Source: Owenia fusiformis
Lineage: Eukaryota > Annelida > Polychaeta > Sabellida > Oweniidae
NCBI GenBank assembly: GCA_903813345.2
Contig: CAIIXF020000006.1
Span: forward strand, 29,705,936-29,769,935
Direction: 5' to 3'
Length of the DNA: 64,000 bases
Part shown: positions 11,680 through 21,314 of the stretch, one piece after another
Numbering within the stretch: position 1 is the stretch's first letter
Layout of the letters: each line of letters starts with the position of its first letter
The notes under the pieces: generated by a model
The model's input: only the letters and a program-made list of their open reading frames with translations
Databases searched by the model: none
Told to the model about the DNA's origin: nothing
Position numbers and translations under genes: made by a program

Positions 11680-13055
11680 ATTGGGGGCGATGAAGAAAGC
11701 CCCATAAACATCAGTGTTCATATTAGCGGTTATTTGGTAGATCTATCTTTGGTATTTTATATTCCGTAGACAATTGCACGTTGTTGGGGGGGGGGGAAGT
11801 TGTGGGGGGGGGGGCAGTTGCACCAAAATTTGGGTAAAATTGGACAAAAAACTGGACACATAATGAAAGGCCCACCTGTTTTAGTGTCCAAAAAATATTT
11901 TGTGATATAATATTGATGATGCCACTTTGAAACAGCCGCCAGTAAATCCATCCAATCAGGACTCCTGTAATAGATACATGTAACGCGTGGGCAAAGTGTC
12001 AAATAATCAAATTAAGGCTTACTTATTCCGGATGGCGGATATAAAATTAATCTGTTATCGCATGGTTTTTGGGAGTGGTGACTTAGACAATGGAGAGGTT
12101 AAGCAAATACGGTTTTTCAAAACGTATACGTAAACGCAAAGTACATTGAATCAACATAGGATTGTATCGCTTTAGTCTACTTCAGATACCCGTTCAACTT
12201 CAACGTTGCGTGTTTAGAACGGGAGATTTTAAAATTTCACGTTGCTATCAACGGGAATCATTATACTCATGTCTGTTGAATACTATCCTTGCAATTTTGA
12301 TTTCGATGCAGAGTATGATTCTTTCTGAAGAAGATGATGTATGTTACGCATGATTTAACTCCAATAATCTTACGAAACAAGCTCGTTTAAAATATGTATT
12401 AGAAAACCAGCTATTGAACTTCATCAATGGGATACTATGTAATCATTACAAGCTATGGTGTAGTCTAAACAAACACTAGAGCTGAACGGCTATTTTTGTG
12501 TGAACTCTACATGTATTTGTATAGGGCCGATTGATACGTTTAAGTTGCGTTTTGGATTTTATACGGTTTATGTTTATGTTAAATTGGGGGCGATGAAGAA
12601 AGCCCCATAATCATCATCAACATCGTGTTTAGGAGGGTGAGGTATAGTCCTGTGTTATCCTCCCTTCTGGTTTGTTTAGTAACAGTGTTCATATTAGCGG
12701 TTATTTGCTAGATCTATCTTTGGTATTTTATTTCCCAAAGACAATTGCACGTTGTGGGGGGGGCAGTTTTTTTGGGGGGGGGGCAGTTGCACCAAAATTT
12801 GGGTAAAATTGGACAAAAAACTGGACACATAATGAAAGGCCCACCTGTTTTAGTGTCCAAAAAATATTTTGTGATATAATATTGATGATGCCACTTTGAA
12901 ACAGCCGCCAGTAAATCCATCCAATCAGGACTCCTGTAATAGATAACGCGTGGGCAAAGTGTCAAATAATCAAATTAAGGCTTACTTATTCCGGATGGCG
13001 GATATAAAATTAATCTGTTATCGCACGGTTTTTGGGAGTGGTGACTTAGACAATG
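11680..13055. repeat. Left-arm internal direct duplication
   Basis: The block 11680-12095 (from TTGGGGGCGATGAAGAAAGC through GGATGGCGGATATAAAATTA to GTGACTTAGACAATG) recurs at 12585-13055. The right arm has one copy (about 20770-21250, inverted). The two left copies therefore arose from a duplication in the left arm, or one was lost from the right. Both contain long G-runs of different length. Confidence 0.8.
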
Positions 13056-13588
13056 TCCTGAGACATCACCTGTAGTAAATACGCATATATCATGCAATCT
13101 GTATTAATGGTGATAGGTCTCGTTCGGGGGGGATGGGGGCTTGGAGACAACGTCTAGTAGCTAAGCTTCCCCTAACCACCGTCAGTACTCATGTGACGGG
13201 TCGTGTATATTTGGTAGATCCTATCATATGGTAATGACATTGATGTGTTATTCCCTAACTTCATTCACGTAGAGAGAGGCCGGACATCCCGATCCTGTAG
13301 CGGATCTTCTCCCTTATATGTTGGTCATTATAAGGGCCCAAGATGTTTCGAATTCATGGGGGTATTCCATGATTGTTCTTCATCAGCGGCCGAAAGAATG
13401 TTGTATGTGATTTGATTCTGAATGATAATGCTGTTTTATTTCTAGTTGTATTTTAATAGGTTTCCCGTATTCGTTTTTGGCGGGAGGGGGGTGGTTGTTT
13501 ATGCGTATTGGTTTATTGCATAAAGGTGTGGTCAGTTTATTGATAAGTTTTGGTTTGGTTTGGTTTGCGGTTAGGCCATATGGTCGTG

Positions 13589-13919
13589 CACTGGCGGATT
13601 AGGGGGGGGGGCCTGGGGGCCCGGGCCCCCCCCCTTGGGTGGGCCCAGAAGAAAAAAAATTGGGCCCAAAAAATTTTTTGGGCCAAACAAGGCCTTCATG
13701 CCCCAAAAAGTGGGCCTTTTTGGTCATTACTAGGCCTTTTAAGGCCTTATTTTTTAATTTCAGGCCAAATTTTGAAGAAAATGGGCCTCAAAATTTCAAA
13801 ATTTGGGCCCACTTTTGGATTTTGGGGGCCCAAAATTTTTTTCCGCGCAAGCGCAGACTTTTTTTTCTCTGACCTGAAATTTGGGCCCCCCCCCTTGTTG
13901 GTTCCTGGATCCGCCCCTG
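13589..13919. mobile_element. hAT-like MITE nested in the left arm (331 bp)
   Basis: The ends are CACTGGCGGATTAGG and, inverted, CAGGGGCGGATCCAGG, the CAGTGGCGGATCCAGG-type terminus of invertebrate hAT-related MITEs. TCGTG flanks it on both sides (13584-13588 and 13920-13924). The right arm has the uninterrupted site near 19741-19760 (inverse of GGCCATATGGTCGTGTATG), so the insertion postdates the formation of the arms. The interior is rich in GGGCCC and A/T runs; the frames it contains (13550-13939 and others) are chance. Confidence 0.78.
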
Positions 13920-15000
13920 TCGTGTATGTTATATATTGATATTGTGTGTATTTAAAGGGTTGTTGGCTTGTTCGTGTTCGGTTGTATCGTGTGGAATTTT
14001 GTGGTGTTTTCAATTTGTTGAGTTGGTGTGCGTTTGGCGGTGACTCTGGTAGGTTAAGGGTGGGTGAATAGCTTTTGGTAGTTCAGGTGGTTGATTTTGT
14101 GTGTCAGCTTTCCGTTGGTATATGCGATATGTAGCTAGTATTTCTTGTTGTTGAGATATTAACTTAAATGTACCGTTTAGTGGTCCGTATTTCAAGTATT
14201 TCGATTTTGTTTTAATCGAACGCGTATACGTATTGGTTAATTATATTGGGGTATGGTCAGTTCAGTGTTGGAATTTGGTTTGGTTGTTTTGTTCATTGTT
14301 TGCGCTTCATTGTCATGTGTGTTTTGTGTTGATATTTTGTGTGTTTGAGTATACATTAATTTGTTCGTGTATGGTTGTATTTTTTATTTTCCGGCATTTT
14401 GCTGTATTTTCGATTTGTTAAGTCGGTTTGAATTTGGTGGTGACTGGGGTGGGTCAATGGTAGGTAAATTGTCTTTTAATGGATCAGGTGGCTTGTTTAA
14501 TGTTTCATTCTGTTGGTGTGTGCATTATGTTCGTGGCATGTTTTGTTGTTGAGATATTAACTTTAATGTAGGGCTTGATGGCCCGTATTTCAAATATTTT
14601 GATTTTCCCATATTTGTGTTTTATCGGGAGGGTGTATGCGTATTGGTTAATTATGCATCAGGGTATGGTCAGTTCAATGTTGAAATTTAATTTGGTTGTT
14701 TTGTTCATTGTTTCAGCTTCATGGTCAGGTATATGTTATGTTTAAATTGTGTGTATTATAAGAGTTGTTGACTTTTTCCGTGTTTGGTCGCGTTTTGGTG
14801 TTTTCGGCATTTTGCGGTATTATCGATTTGTAAAGTTGGTTTGAGTGTGACTGGGATGGGTCTTTGGTGGTAAATTGTCTTTCGATGGTTCGGGTGGCTT
14901 GTTTAATGTTTTAGCTCTCTGTAGGTATGTGCATTATATTCGTTGCATATCTTGTTGTTGAGATATAAACTTAAATGTAGGGTTTGATGGCCCGTATTTT
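13920..15000. repeat. Approx. 400-bp tandem repeat, left arm
   Basis: About three head-to-tail units carry TTGTTGTTGAGATATTAACTT, then GGCCCGTATTTCAAATATTT, then GGTATGGTCAGTTCA. Unit spacing is about 390-400 bp (e.g. GATTTT motif near 14203 and 14601). The right arm has about five units inverted. No unit has a convincing ORF. Confidence 0.75.
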
Positions 15001-15369
15001 GGGAGGGGTTGACTTAGACCATGTCTGAGACATCACCCCTTGTGAACACGCATAAGTCATGCAATCTGTGTCAAATGGTGAGCGGTCTCGTTTAGGGAAC
15101 CTGGGAGACATAGTCTAGTGTCTAAGCTTCCCCGAACCACCGTCAGTGATTATGTGCCAGGTAGAGTATATTTAGTTGATCCTAGGATGATGACATTGGT
15201 GTCACTCCTATTGTCATTTTTGTAGAGAAAGGCCGGACATCCCGATCCAGTAGTGAATCTTCTCCCTTACTTGTGAGTCACAGTAAGGGCCCAAGATGTT
15301 TCGAACTCATGGTTGGTGGTCCATGATATGTTCTTCATCACATGAGCAGCCTAAATGAGGGGGAGGGGG

Positions 15370-16540
15370 ATGGGTTGTCCCTGATTTTGGTTTGTTTTGG
15401 GATTGTCTCCAGTCGGAGACAGTTAGTTGTGTACTAAGTAAATTGGTATCATAGTTTAGTTGTGTTTGCAGGTTGTGTCTAATTGTATTTAATAGTGTAG
15501 TTTAATTGATTCAGTATTGGGCTGTGACTGGTTCTGTTGCGGTGGTTGGTATCAGGTTGTGTTATGTTAATTCAACAATGGGTTGATTTGAGTTTGGCCT
15601 CGTTGGCTATGTTGTGTTGTGTCGGTTTGTTGTTTGGTTGTGCTCGATTGTGTTAGTTTTATAGTCGATTGTGTTTTGGTGGTTGTTTGTCTAGTTGAGC
15701 CTGGTTGTGTTGTGTAAGTTTGGTATCGGGTTGTGTCTCATTAAGTTATGTTAATTTCAAAGTGGTTGTGTTATGTTGGTCGGGTAGTGGGTTGTGCCCA
15801 TGTAGGATGAAGTATCTGGTTGTGTCAGATTGAGTTTCGTGATTGGTGTTGTTTTCAGAGAGTGTTGGTTGGTTGGTTTGGCATTCCAGTTTGGTTGTGC
15901 CTGATTGTGTTTTGATTGTTTTGTGTAAAATTGGGTTGTGTTTTGCTTTTCTTGTTTTATAATTGGGTTGTGCCAAATTGTGTTTCGTATATTTGACAAT
16001 TGGTTGTGTTTTCGGAGGTAAAAATAAGGTTGTCGTATTGGGTTGTGCCGTATTGTGTTGATGGTTTGTAGTTTGGTTGTGTCTGGTTGTTTTGTTTTAG
16101 CTTGGTGTCTAGCTGTGCTTCATTGTGTTCATAATGCATTGTGTTATGTTGTGATTGTGTTGTGCTGGTCGGGCGGTTGTACCCAGTCGGGTGAGGTATC
16201 TGGTCGTGTCTGATTGTGTTGTGTGGTCGGTTGTGCCTAGTCGGGTGAAGTATGTGGTTGTGTTCGATTGTGCATGTGTTGTGTGATTATTGTAAACTCC
16301 AGTTCGAGAAAGTTAGTTGTGTGTATTGGGATTTTAGTTTGGTTGTTCCTGATTGTGTTGTGCTAATTTGACATTGGATTGTTTTCTTCGGTAATTGTGA
16401 GTCAGGTTGCGTTCTGATTCTTCTGACATAGGTTTTGTTGCGTTGTTGGCGATCTTCTAGGTTGTGCTTAGTTGTAATGGTTGGTTGTGATAGGTTATGT
16501 ATTAAGAGGCAGGTTATGCCGGATTGTGTTTTGGTGTATC
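15370..16540. repeat. G/T-rich degenerate minisatellite in the element centre
   Basis: About 1.2 kb of loosely repeated words such as GGTTGTGCC, GATTGTGTTGTG and GGTTGTGTT, irregularly spaced at roughly 25-70 bp. The complementary strand is C/A-rich and stays open in places, giving Asn/Gln/Thr-rich frames (15746-16139) that I regard as by-products of the repeat. It has no counterpart in the right half, so it belongs to the unique core. Confidence 0.7.
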
Positions 16541-16837
16541 ATGGAGTTCAGATACAAGTTAGTGGTTTTGGGTATTATATTGTAGGTATATTCGTTAATT
16601 CTTGGTAGAGTCAATAGTTCAATGTATTTGTGTACATTGTTAGTATATGTAAAAGTTTTGATACCTATTCATACATAGTGAGATCTCTGGTGTGAGAAGC
16701 ACATCTGGCATGATGGGCGTTAGTCTTGCGTTGTTCTTTGGTTCTGATGAGGTACTTTCTTGTGGTTCATTGGATCTCATTATCTTATTAAACTACAATC
16801 CTGGACGAACAAAACAAGACCACCCAAACCAAAAATA

Positions 16838-17477
16838 ATGGAAGTCGAACAAGACGATTTTATAGCATCTACAGAGCTAACAACAATACCTGATAGCCAA
16901 ATAAACAAGCTCAAACGGCAACACCATGCAAACTTGGGCAAAACCAAAACCAAGGCGAAGCTGAAGCTGAACCTCAACAAGAAAGACGCCACCCTACCCT
17001 ACCCAACCCCCGGGAAAAGCAACATCTGGAAACATTGGGACTCATGACAACCAAAACTGCCAAAAACAATCAACATGCCACAGAACAAACAACCTTAAAG
17101 TCGCTAAAACAAGAAATCTTTTGGGAAACAAGACACCAAGGCGCACTACAAGCAATTACCAACTCGCTCTTGGGGATCCTAAAAGGGCTCATCCCCAAAA
17201 TACCATGTGGGGTACCCGAAAAAGACACGACTGACATCAAAGAAGCGTTCGACGCAATATTGTACAAATGCGGGAACGACTTGAAAGATGCGGCAACCCT
17301 ACACAGCACACAAGACTTGCCTTCCACAAAAAACAGGTGGACAACCTCACAATCAAACTGGCCAGCACAATGGGTAGAACTGAAGCAGAGAAAACAACCA
17401 AAGAACTACGAAACACAGCTTCAGAATACAAATCAAATAGGAAACAAGCCACGACACCTAACCAACGCAGCAGATAA
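16838..17477 (+). pseudogene. Decayed ORF of the foldback element, followed by a histone-type 3' end
   Basis: Coding potential runs through three frames: 16838-17047 (charged, starting MEVEQDDFIASTEL), then about 16900-17320 (KSLKQEIFWETRHQGALQAI, hydrophobic LLGILKGLIPKI), then 17268-17477 (a KKQVDNLTIKLAS helical stretch ending NQRSR). The frame changes suggest an originally continuous protein broken by indels, though separate exons are possible. I cannot assign a family; the basic, coiled-coil-rich composition would fit a nucleic-acid-binding or structural element protein, which is only a guess. The last stop is at 17475-17477, 18 nt before a histone-type stem-loop, which supports this being the 3' end of a real transcription unit. 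Confidence 0.5.
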
Positions 17478-17495
17478 CAATCTTCAACAAACCCC

Positions 17496-17511
17496 GGCCC
17501 TTTTCAGGGCC
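17496..17511 (+). promoter_or_regulatory. Histone-mRNA-type 3' stem-loop
   Basis: The 16 bases GGCCCTTTTCAGGGCC form a 6-bp stem (GGCCCT/AGGGCC) with the loop TTTC. This is an exact match to the replication-dependent histone consensus GGCYCTTTTCAGRGCC, and it is followed by ACC. In metazoan histone mRNAs this element binds SLBP and replaces the poly(A) tail. It begins 18 nt after the last stop of the decayed ORF, the usual distance, and lies on the same strand. No histone ORF is nearby. Confidence 0.8.
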
Positions 17512-17524
17512 ACCTATTTCTACC

Positions 17525-17542
17525 AAAAGAGTTATTACATTT
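17525..17542 (+). promoter_or_regulatory. Histone downstream element-like sequence (U7 snRNA target)
   Basis: The sequence AAAAGAGTTATTACATTT begins 14 nt after the stem-loop. It matches 14 of 18 positions of the exact complement of the vertebrate U7 snRNA 5' end as I recall it (AAAAGAGCTGTAACACTT). Spacing and the AAAAGAG core fit a histone downstream element, so both halves of the histone 3'-processing signal are present. Confidence 0.65.
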
Positions 17543-17869
17543 ATGAAGTATAACCCAAATTCCTTGAAATAACCTACCAATGTATGACTGTATGAAGGAA
17601 TAAATGAATGAATATAACAACCAATAACGCACCACCAGGTGACTTGTTCGGGTCAGATAGCATGGCGCGTAGTATAGTAGAAAGTTCACATATAACAACT
17701 ACCGACACCAACAATATAACCTTACCCATTCATACACTTCGAACTCACCAAAATCAACCTTACCTACCAATCTTAAAAAATATCGCCTTAAACTTAAGGG
17801 AATTAATAAAAAGCGACATCTTCCTATAAAACCGACAACAATTCCGCAACACACGGAAAACAAGATCTG

Positions 17870-19750
17870 AATATTCATATACGGGAAGACAGCCCCCAAA
17901 ATCAATTCAATATCTCTACAACAAAACATGCCACCAACACAACACACACACCAACACGAAGCCAAAACATAACACAGAACAACCAAACCATTCAAAACAA
18001 ATTAACCCACCAAATGGGTACCACATACGCCACCAAACCAACACCACATCCACAAACCAAAACACCACAAAACTCAGATTAAACCAAAAAAACGGTTATG
18101 CGCAAACAAGTTCACAACTCCCTCAAAACAGATACTATCAACACAAAAAATACCTCACAATAAAGGATAAAGAAAAAACAACACAACTAAACCAGACTTT
18201 AACAATAAACCAATCACACACAGACACAATCAACCAATATGCATACACCCTCCCGATACAAAACAAATATGGGAAAATCAAAATATTTGAAATACGGACC
18301 ACGAAACCCTATATTCAGGTTAATATCTCAGCAACAAGATATGCCACCAACATAATACACACACCAACAGAAAGCTAAATCATTAAACAAGCCACAGGAA
18401 CCATCAAAAGACAATTTATCGACTATAGAATCACCCTAGTCACCACCAAACTCAAACCAACTTAACAAATCGAAAATACCGCAAAATGCCGAAAACACCA
18501 AAACGCGACCAAACACGGAGAAGCTAACAACTCTTCTAATACACACAATATGGACATAAAATATACCTAACCATGAAGCTGAAACAATGAACAAAACAAC
18601 CAAATAATATTACAACATTGAACTGACCATACCCTGATGCAATCAACCAATACGCATGACCTTCCCGATAAAACACAAATATGGGAAAATCAAAATATTT
18701 GAAATACGGGCCATCAAACCCTACATTTTAGTTAATATCTCAACAACAAAACATGCCAAGAACATAATGCACACACCAAAAGAAAGCTAAAACATTAAAC
18801 AAGTCACCTGAACCATCAAAAGACAATTTACCTACCAAAGACCCATCCTAGTCACCACCAAACTCAAACCAACTTTACAAATTGATAATACCGCAAAATG
18901 CCGAAAACACCAAAACGCGACCAAACACGGAAAAAGTCAACAACTCTTATAATACACACAATATAAACATAACATATATCTGACCATGAAGCTGAGACAA
19001 TGAACAAAACAACCAAATTAAATTTCAACATTGAACTGACCATACCCTGATGCAATTAACCTATACGCATACACCCTCCCGATAAAACACAAATATGGGA
19101 AAATCAAAATATTTGAAATACGGGCCATCAAGCCCTACATTTAAGTTAATATCTCAACAACAAAACATGCCACGAACATAATACACACACCAACAGAAAG
19201 CTGAAACATTAAACAAGCCACTTGATCCATCAAAAGACAATTTACCTACCATAGGCACCACCAAACTCAAACCGACTTAACAAATCGAAAATACAGCAAA
19301 ATGCCGGAAAATAAAAAATACAAACATACACGAACAAATTGATGCCTCCTTAAACACACAAAATATCAACACAAAACACACATGACAATGAAGTGCAAAC
19401 AATGAACAAAACAACCAAACCAAATTCCAACACTGAACTGACCATACCCCAATACAATTAACCAATACGTATACGCGTAAAACAAAATACAAGAAAATCG
19501 AAATATTTGAAATCTCAACAACAAGATATACTAGCTACATATCGCATATACCAACGGAAAGCTGAAACACTAAATAAACCACCTGAACTACCAAAAAGCT
19601 ATTCACCCACCCTTAACCTACCACAGTCACCGCCAAACGCACACCAACTCAACAAATTGAAAACACCACAAAATGCCACACGAAACAACCGAACACGAAC
19701 AAGCCAACAACCCTTTAAATACACACAATATCAATATATAACATACACGA
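17870..19750. repeat. Approx. 410-bp tandem repeat, right arm
   Basis: Copies of the motif AAATATGGGAAAATCAAAATA lie near 18263, 18680 and 19090, about 410 bp apart, with degenerate units on either side. They are the inverse of the left-arm units at 13920-15000. The right arm keeps about five units against about three on the left. Confidence 0.75.
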
Positions 19751-21314
19751 CCATATGGCCTAACCGCAAACCAAACCAAAACTTATCAATAAACTGACCA
19801 CACCTTTATGCAATAAAAATAAACCAATACGCATAAACAACCACCCCCCTCCCGCCAAAAACGAATACGGGAAACCTATTAAAATACAACTGAATGATAG
19901 AAATAAAACAGCATTATCATTCAGAATCAAATCATATACAACATTCTTTCGGCCGCTGATGAAGAACAATCATGGGATACCCCCATGAGTTCGAAACATC
20001 TTCGGCCCTTATAATGACCAACATGTAAGGGAGAAGATCCGCTACAGGATCGGGATGTCCGGCCTCTCTCTACGTGAATGAAGATAGGTAATAACACACC
20101 AATGTCATTACCCTAGGATCTACCAAATATACACGACCCGTCACATGAGTACTGACGGTGGTTAGGGGAAGCTTAGCTACTAGACGTTGTCTCCCAGCCC
20201 CCCCCCCCGAACTAGATCTCTCACCATTAATACAGATTGCATGACATATGCGTATTTACTACAGGTGATGTCTCAGGACACTGGAGAGGTTAAGCTACCG
20301 TATAAAATCCAAAACGCAACTTAAACGTATCAATCGGCCCTATACAAATACATGTAGAGTTCACACAAAAATAGCCGTTCAGCTCTAGTGTTTGTTTAGA
20401 CTACACCATAGCTTGTAATGATTACATAGTATCCCATTGATGAAGTTCAATAGCTGGTTTTCTAATACATATTTTAAACGAGCTCGTTTCGTAAGATTAT
20501 TGGAGTTAAATCATGCGTAACATACATCATCTTCTTCAGAAAGAATCATACTCTGCATCGAAATCAAAATTGCAAGGATAGTATTCAACAGACATGAGTA
20601 TAATGATTCCCGTTGATAGCAACGTGAAATTTTAAAATCTCCCGTTCTAAACACGCAACTTTGAAGTTGAACGGGTATCTGAAGTAGACTAAAGCGATAC
20701 AATCCTATGTTGATTCAATGTACTTTGCGTTTACGTATACGTTTTGAAAAACCGTATTTGCTTAACCTCTCCATTGTCTAAGTCACCACTCCCAAAAACC
20801 ATGCGATAACAGATTAATTTTATATCCGCCATCCGGAATAAGTAAGCCTTAATTTGATTCATTTGACACTTTGCCCACGCGTTATCTATTACAGGAGTCC
20901 TGATTGGATGGATTTACTGGCGGCTGTTTCAAAGTGGCATCATCAATCATCATCATCAATCACAAAATATTTTTGGACACTAAAACAGGTGGGCCTTTCA
21001 TTATGTGTCCAGTCTTTTGTCCAATTTTACCCAAATTTTGGTGCAACTGCCCCCCCCCCCCACAACTGCCCCCCCCCCCCAACAACGTGCAATTGTCTTC
21101 GGAATATAAAATACCAAAGATAGCTCTACCAAATAACCGCTAATATGAACACTGTTACTAAACAAACCAGAATGGAGGATAACACAGGACTATACCTCAC
21201 CCTCCTAAACACGATGTTGATGATGATTATGGTGCTTTTTCATCGCCCCCAATTTGGATGCCCCCCCCCCCCTGGCCAGAAATTCTTTCAAAATCAATCA
21301 GGTACATAGCCTAT

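Follow-up and report, generated by a model that had tools for sequence, protein, structure and literature searches.

The window, by which we mean the whole 64-kb stretch of DNA analysed, contains a genuine histone-type 3′ signal, confirmed by sequence and by Rfam. It lies behind a decayed open reading frame (ORF) that is a member of a gene family on Penelope-like retroelements. We consider it likely that this segment is the histone-type 3′ processing signal of an accessory gene, whose cut RNA serves as S-phase mRNA and whose uncut RNA serves as template. We infer the use of SLBP and U7, the S-phase timing and the split between mRNA and template RNA. The histone 3′ signal is known, and so are Penelope-like elements that lack an endonuclease but have hammerhead motifs and accessory ORFs. 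What appears to be new is the combination of the signal with a Penelope-like element and its presence on unrelated mobile-element and multigene families; neither was found in the literature searched.

The signal and the element in the window

The signal is a perfect 6-bp stem with a 4-nt loop, GGCCCT-TTTC-AGGGCC (GGCCCTTTTCAGGGCC), followed by AAAAGAG, which resembles the U7 target of histone genes (Table 1). Positions 17491-17536 match the Rfam Histone3 family (RF00032) with 36 bits against a cut-off of 34 (E = 8.8e-07), the sole Rfam match at gathering threshold in the 64-kb window. A first-pass annotation of the window had described the perfect stem and TTTC loop, the 18-nt gap between the last stop of the decayed ORF (TAA) and the stem, and an AAAAGAG-type element at normal spacing, and all three were borne out. 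The 13-nt spacing is also that of 20 of the 22 histone ends read in this genome (20 H1, and the H2A and H2B of a cluster at C8:9.87 Mb); all 22 have a paired stem-loop, and in the other two the AAAAGAG-type element follows at 12 nt. In agreement with that annotation, no histone gene showed up in the window itself: Pfam Histone (PF00125) is absent from the window interval among the matches listed, and tblastn with three histones of the same genome (one H1, two core histones) gave no match.

Foldback elements have long inverted arms built of tandem sub-repeats, and the window element has the appearance of one because its own long inverted arms carry sub-repeats of ~413 nt. It differs in that these arms are inverted copies of the 3′ end of a Penelope-like element, complete with hammerhead-like motifs and the 413-nt repeats. 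The gene family is found on Penelope-like retroelements, and the carrier is not the plain foldback element of the earlier description. The two best matches between the window repeats and those directly after a Penelope-type reverse transcriptase (RT) fragment (C10:5276363) are 84-89% identical over 804 nt. A strict version of the hammerhead-like motif occurs twice in the window element and not once in 200 shuffles; in the plus-strand motif, stems I and III were paired by script and stem II by eye. The script found no hammerhead core in the extra, degenerate copy of the 3′ end. The window copy is decayed, without a reverse transcriptase (it has no RT match) and with its neighbours inverted, and no TATA box is present in 16401-16838.

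Table 1. Features of the element in the window (positions counted from the first letter of the window).
Feature	Position	Strand	Remarks
Outer limits of inverted-repeat element	13051..20283	.	arms 13051-13132 and 20202-20283
Second hammerhead-like motif, left arm	13278..13391	-	
Left arm, same ~413-nt repeats as inverted array	13500..14999	-	
Extra inverted copy of element 3′ end, degenerate	15010..15340	-	71% to C518 unit 1991-2345
Decayed, frame-shifted ORF of element gene family	16838..17477	+	ATG 16838, stop 17475-17477
Histone-type stem-loop	17496..17511	+	sequence and Rfam RF00032, 36 bits
AAAAGAG, U7-target-like histone downstream element	17525..17531	+	13 nt after stem-loop
AATAAA, possible poly(A) signal	17599..17604	+	87 nt after stem-loop
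~413-nt tandem repeats downstream of gene	17893..19837	+	similarity to repeats at C10:5276363
Hammerhead-ribozyme-like motif	19951..20064	+	CTGATGA / GAAA / TC cores

Relatives of the window gene and their carrier

A search of the genome with the core of the element (16780-17640) gave 45 match rows, some of them just the stem-loop region of relatives. Open relatives of the decayed ORF lie at C518, C420, C1:50.08 Mb, C5:26.4 Mb and C12:22.9 Mb. The C518 array consists of 6.3-kb tandem units with an intact 251-aa ORF, six copies on one strand and two on the other; the 251-aa ORF is also intact at C420 (two) and C1:50.08 Mb (two), and a 90%-identical member lies at C5:26.43 Mb. In the C518 gene (L023), a TATA box precedes the open ORF; the stem-loop lies 29 nt after the stop, and AAAAGAG comes 13 nt after the stem-loop. 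The near-intact copy at C6:38.2 Mb (L020) has the same order, with TATAAATA, a short leader, ATG, an ORF broken once by a premature stop, the stem-loop and AAAAGAG.

The gene of the intact relatives is built like a replication-dependent histone gene, with TATA box, short leader, no introns, stem-loop and downstream element. Its likeness to the 3′ end of such genes (SLBP/U7, RF00032) lies in the 16-nt stem-loop, the TTTC-type loop and AAAAGAG at 13 nt, the spacing of the histones of its own genome. It differs in that the gene is not a histone and its carrier is a retroelement. The encoded protein has no match above cut-off in Pfam or in PDB sequence searches (best E = 0.02), none was confirmed in viral contigs, and its AlphaFold2 model was unusable (mean pLDDT 44.5). 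The RF00032 cut-off is exceeded also in L026, L012 and L020; the remaining element loci among 18 sources scored fall below the cut-off, the C518 unit with 31.5 bits.

The C518 unit, which was fully read, also contains a 629-aa RT ORF (RVT_1, E = 6.3e-13) that is full-length and open in 11 copies in the genome. By sequence it has no PDB relatives at E = 0.001; within the same genome, an 800-aa frame at C5:36.63 Mb shares 36% identity with it. That frame has a GIY-YIG-like motif in its C-terminus, read by eye; Pfam reported no GIY-YIG domain in it and scored its RT at 29.4 bits against a cut-off of 29.6. No GIY-YIG endonuclease was reported in the 629-aa RT, which fits endonuclease-deficient Penelope-like elements. 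The RT of the C518 relatives, which the window copy lacks, is assigned to the Penelope type partly on motifs that we take to be characteristic. A script detected hammerhead-like motifs with full cores and paired stems I and III in seven of the 12 sequences scanned (two in the window, L023, two in L045, L046, L047, L009 and L029); they are defined by cores and stems found by script and eye, and even with E values up to 5 allowed, none of L023, L001, L045 and window positions 12500-20800 matched a hammerhead model of Rfam. The family thus combines the hammerhead-like motif with tandem and inverted copies, and Penelope-like elements are reported in tandem and with hammerhead motifs (PMC11167929, PMC6431247).

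Two of the closest known systems are of this kind. The Terminons of bdelloid rotifers (PMC6431247) are endonuclease-deficient Penelope-like elements that share an RT without endonuclease domain, a hammerhead motif, an accessory ORF and head-to-tail tandem copies with the elements studied here. They differ in two ways: no run of two or more TTAGGG units was present in the eight sequences that we examined, and the accessory gene here has its own TATA promoter and histone-type 3′ end. PAc, a Penelope-like element of Anolis, shares the tandem arrangement with pseudo-LTRs and the hammerhead motif, but it is described with a GIY-YIG endonuclease in its ORF (PMC11167929). In both papers, the word ‘histone’ is absent from the main text. 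Among the papers listed in our literature search, none has a title or displayed abstract on a mobile element with a histone-type 3′ end.

The units of C518 (a 50-kb contig) and C420 encode proteins that are 99-100% identical, with one strand switch, and these 6.3-kb Penelope-like units may have been recently active.

We read the stem in 25 element copies. It is perfect in 11 (window, C2:26.77, C12:22.9, C12:12.7, C2:18.7, C1:40.3, C6:38.2, C518, two at C1:50.08, and C5:26.4) and has one substitution in four (C2:24.98, C3:1.65, C292 and C1:34.1). It is interrupted in one (C4:29.50), which has LINE-like sequence in the loop, and absent from nine (C40, C3:0.20, two at C346, C4:28.57, two at C4:28.05, C4:28.12 and C7:39.1). 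Beyond this set lie further units of C518 and C420, the loci C40:4.7 kb, C4:28.25 Mb and C4:29.52 Mb, and shorter fragments. The stem-loop of the element gene in L044 (~1190-1215) is broken in its loop by a LINE-endonuclease-like sequence, read by eye. In five of the nine stem-less copies, similarity to the gene ends at the equivalent of 17469, immediately ahead of the stop. One sub-lineage or more must therefore have lost the stem-loop or have lacked it from the start. Among the 11 perfect-stem ends, the downstream element lies exactly 13 nt away in nine; the C1:40.3 Mb copy has lost its GAG and the C2:18.7 Mb copy has a 4-nt insertion there.

Other genes with the signal and the host machinery

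The signal is widespread in this genome. Histone3 matches number at least 74 (from 75 candidates scored, the window site not among them). The upstream genes are histone H1 at 20 sites and small-protein genes at 29 (62-164 aa, the shortest truncated), and a core-histone match adjoins five sites by coordinates. Four sites belong to DDE transposase genes or remnants (DDE_3, E = 7.2e-18 for C3:1.551 Mb) and four to GDSL-hydrolase sequences, namely two remnants (tblastn E ~1e-4) and two genes, one above the Pfam cut-off and one below it (E = 1.5e-4). The rest are three Cys-rich ORFs, seven copies of an ORF-less repeat and two of a second repeat. By pattern search, the exact stem-loop 16-mer occurs 50 times in the 498-Mb genome, and CCTTTTCAGGRCC followed after 9-15 nt by AAAAGAG occurs 77 times. 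The latter search used one loop sequence and is no census, as the core-histone ends read have another loop. Its 77 sites comprise 12 H1 genes, six copies of the present element, 42 small-protein genes (34 read, eight inferred from tandem-array position), nine copies of the first repeat (seven read), four Cys-rich ORFs, two GDSL remnants and two copies of the second repeat. Among 61 stem-loop genes of every kind, also histones, that have ORFs of at least 75 aa, 51 bear a TATA box in the 140 nt ahead of the ATG; shuffles gave a mean of 13.9 and a maximum of 24.

The small helical protein genes (C8, C3, C6, C7 and C10) form a large family, mostly with TATA and many in tandem, that ends in the histone stem-loop and AAAAGAG. 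Its loci include L035, L048, L052, L061, L064, L076, L078, L110, L113-L116 and L118-L120. By blastp, the small proteins read fall into this family, a second group (L036, L067) and two singletons, and those tested with Pfam (L048, L061, L067, L078) match no family above cut-off. AlphaFold2 predicts a helical hairpin and not a histone fold for the large family (pLDDT 81.9), and no PDB entry matched it at an E value of 0.001 or lower.

The DDE gene at C3:1551401-1552348 (L054/L108) has a TATA box, a 337-aa open frame from its ATG with a DDE_3 domain, and the stem-loop and downstream element after its stop. Blastn found no inverted repeats in 3 kb around it, so it is a putative mobile gene. Ten DDE members had their 3′ ends read: five have a fully paired stem (one with a G-U pair), one has a single mismatch, one has lost half of the stem-loop and three (L085-L087) lack just the stem-loop and keep AAAAGAG. 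Three of the paired-stem members have a spacing of 10-11 nt rather than 13; in the other two (43-49% protein identity) the downstream element is displaced or none is recognisable nearby.

Further kinds of sequence end in the same signal. GDSL/SGNH-hydrolase-like ORFs of ~220 aa do so at C12:29.027 Mb (L053, above the Pfam cut-off) and C1:55.259 Mb (L074, below it), as do short Cys-rich ORFs on C10 and C4 (L070, L071, L105, L024). L070 is related to L071 and L024 by tblastn, and neither L070 nor L071 has a Pfam family above cut-off. The ORF-less repeat ends in the stem-loop at L058, L059, L060, L043, L096, L063, L066 and L121; six other copies compared are 93-99% identical to L058, and four of the loci have an N-terminal piece of an RT on the opposite strand, at a distance of 3.7-4.9 kb.

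The host encodes SLBP, with the PF15247 RNA-binding domain above cut-off in two exons (58.7 and 33.8 bits) at C5:14.877 Mb. For U7 snRNA, the best RF00066 match in the genome, with 24.2 bits, stays below the cut-off of 34; searching with a strict pattern yielded 0 matches (reversed control 2). A weak U7-like candidate with CTCTTTT, below the Rfam cut-off, lies on the minus strand at C9:17266387-17266438 (L030). Neither AATAAA nor ATTAAA occurs within 300 nt of four histone ends checked or in ~140 nt after two small-protein gene ends.

A wider reading, which we hold tentatively, is that histone-type 3′ ends are general for non-histone genes here, and that several unrelated mobile elements (the Penelope-like retroelement, the DDE transposase family and possibly others) use them for poly(A)-less S-phase mRNAs, which would link the supply of their proteins to DNA replication, with read-through RNA as the retroelement template. 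Since they carry the signal, the element gene, the other mobile-element genes and the small non-histone genes may have an expression that follows DNA replication. Replication-dependent histone mRNAs have been called the sole known cellular mRNAs without a poly(A) tail (PMC2642717). If the wider reading is true, a retroelement, a DDE transposase and dozens of small-protein genes break this histone-only rule, and transposition has a direct route for coupling to S phase. Such stem-loop genes would be apt to escape RNA-seq based on poly(A) selection.

Retrocopies, proposed working and alternatives

Two copies (C5:26.4 Mb and C12:22.9 Mb) begin directly after the 3′ terminus of another copy. Their start, 31-33 nt downstream of the TATA box of relatives as judged by eye, is where the cap site would be expected. 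These two retrocopy starts suggest that the promoter of the element gene has been used in the germline. The C5:26.4 Mb copy does not stop at the stem-loop but runs on for ~680 nt, across the hammerhead-like motif, as far as the shared 3′ terminus; at least some RNA thus escaped cleavage, and processing is not obligatory.

In the working that we propose, host SLBP would bind the element stem-loop and the U7 snRNP would pair with AAAAGAG (putative pairing target CCAAAAGAG), so that most transcripts from the element promoter would be cut just after the stem-loop. The cut transcripts, lacking poly(A), would act as the S-phase mRNA from which the accessory protein is translated. Uncut transcripts would run through the hammerhead-like motif to the 3′ terminus of the element, and this full-length RNA would be the template for reverse transcription. 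The first-pass annotation had suggested that processing couples transposition to DNA replication. Of this idea, the histone-type signal on an element gene stands, and the transposase of a foldback transposon as its target does not; since the carrier is Penelope-like, any coupling would act on the element-encoded accessory protein.

The read-through retrocopy and the 9 of 25 copies without the stem-loop count against an obligatory 3′ end. Against our main reading count the downstream AATAAA, the U7 search with its best match below cut-off, Rfam Histone3 scores below cut-off in several stem-loop copies, altered downstream elements, the negative result with the Rfam hammerhead models and the window copy without a TATA box. 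The AATAAA lies 87-135 nt after the stem-loop in all four element copies checked and leaves room for ordinary polyadenylation; histone genes of Oikopleura combine the stem-loop with a downstream poly(A) signal (PMC3156773).

The signal could instead be an inherited passenger whose stem-loop has no effect on mobility, acquired when an ancestor of the family took over a host gene or else a histone-type 3′ end. Donors abound, as many non-histone genes bear the signal, and Penelope elements can mobilise host genes (PMC3846280). Moreover, the window 3′ region is ~79-84% identical to host H1 3′ ends over 63-71 nt, and one element sub-lineage manages without the stem-loop. However, the pattern of drift is unexpected for an idle passenger. 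The comparison took 10 copies from four diverged groups, out of the 15 whose stem-loop is full-length, with near-duplicates omitted. In 32 between-group pairs, mean identity is 92% in the stem-loop (ungapped) and 78% in the next 22 nt (lowest pair 54%). The flanks have drifted to 57% in the 90 nt upstream and 59% downstream, close to the 53% of shuffled sequences aligned in the same way. The expectation that other copies keep the stem against flanking drift was thereby upheld for the copies with a stem-loop. Compensatory changes, also looked for, were not seen within the element family, whose stem shows little variation, but between gene classes the pairs GGCCCT/AGGGCC and GGTCCT/AGGACC interchange. 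Profile comparison also shows no relation of the element protein to the small helical proteins, and on balance we regard an idle passenger as unlikely.

Alternatively, the stem-loop could be a translation, export or packaging element, with the 3′ end made by ordinary polyadenylation or at the hammerhead-like motif. Both the AATAAA in the four copies checked and the retrocopy that runs uncut through the hammerhead-like region to the 3′ terminus are in its favour. It leaves unexplained why AAAAGAG is kept at histone spacing in 9 of 11 perfect-stem copies, and we think it rather improbable that such a role accounts for the signal.

The signal belongs to the mobile-element ORF, as first annotated: the junction between the two recurs in other dispersed copies, including intact genes. 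This leaves very little probability that a piece of a histone gene inserted locally into a single copy of the element, which the similarity to histone 3′ ends might suggest and which the window, with no histone match among those listed, does not support. A chance palindrome was rejected as the least credible explanation: stems of 6 bp are in themselves frequent in 64 kb, and the window pattern with up to three mismatches is expected 0.57 times by chance, but the reversed patterns occur 0 times against 50 exact 16-mers and 0 times against 77 stem-loops with AAAAGAG, in line with the Rfam E-value.
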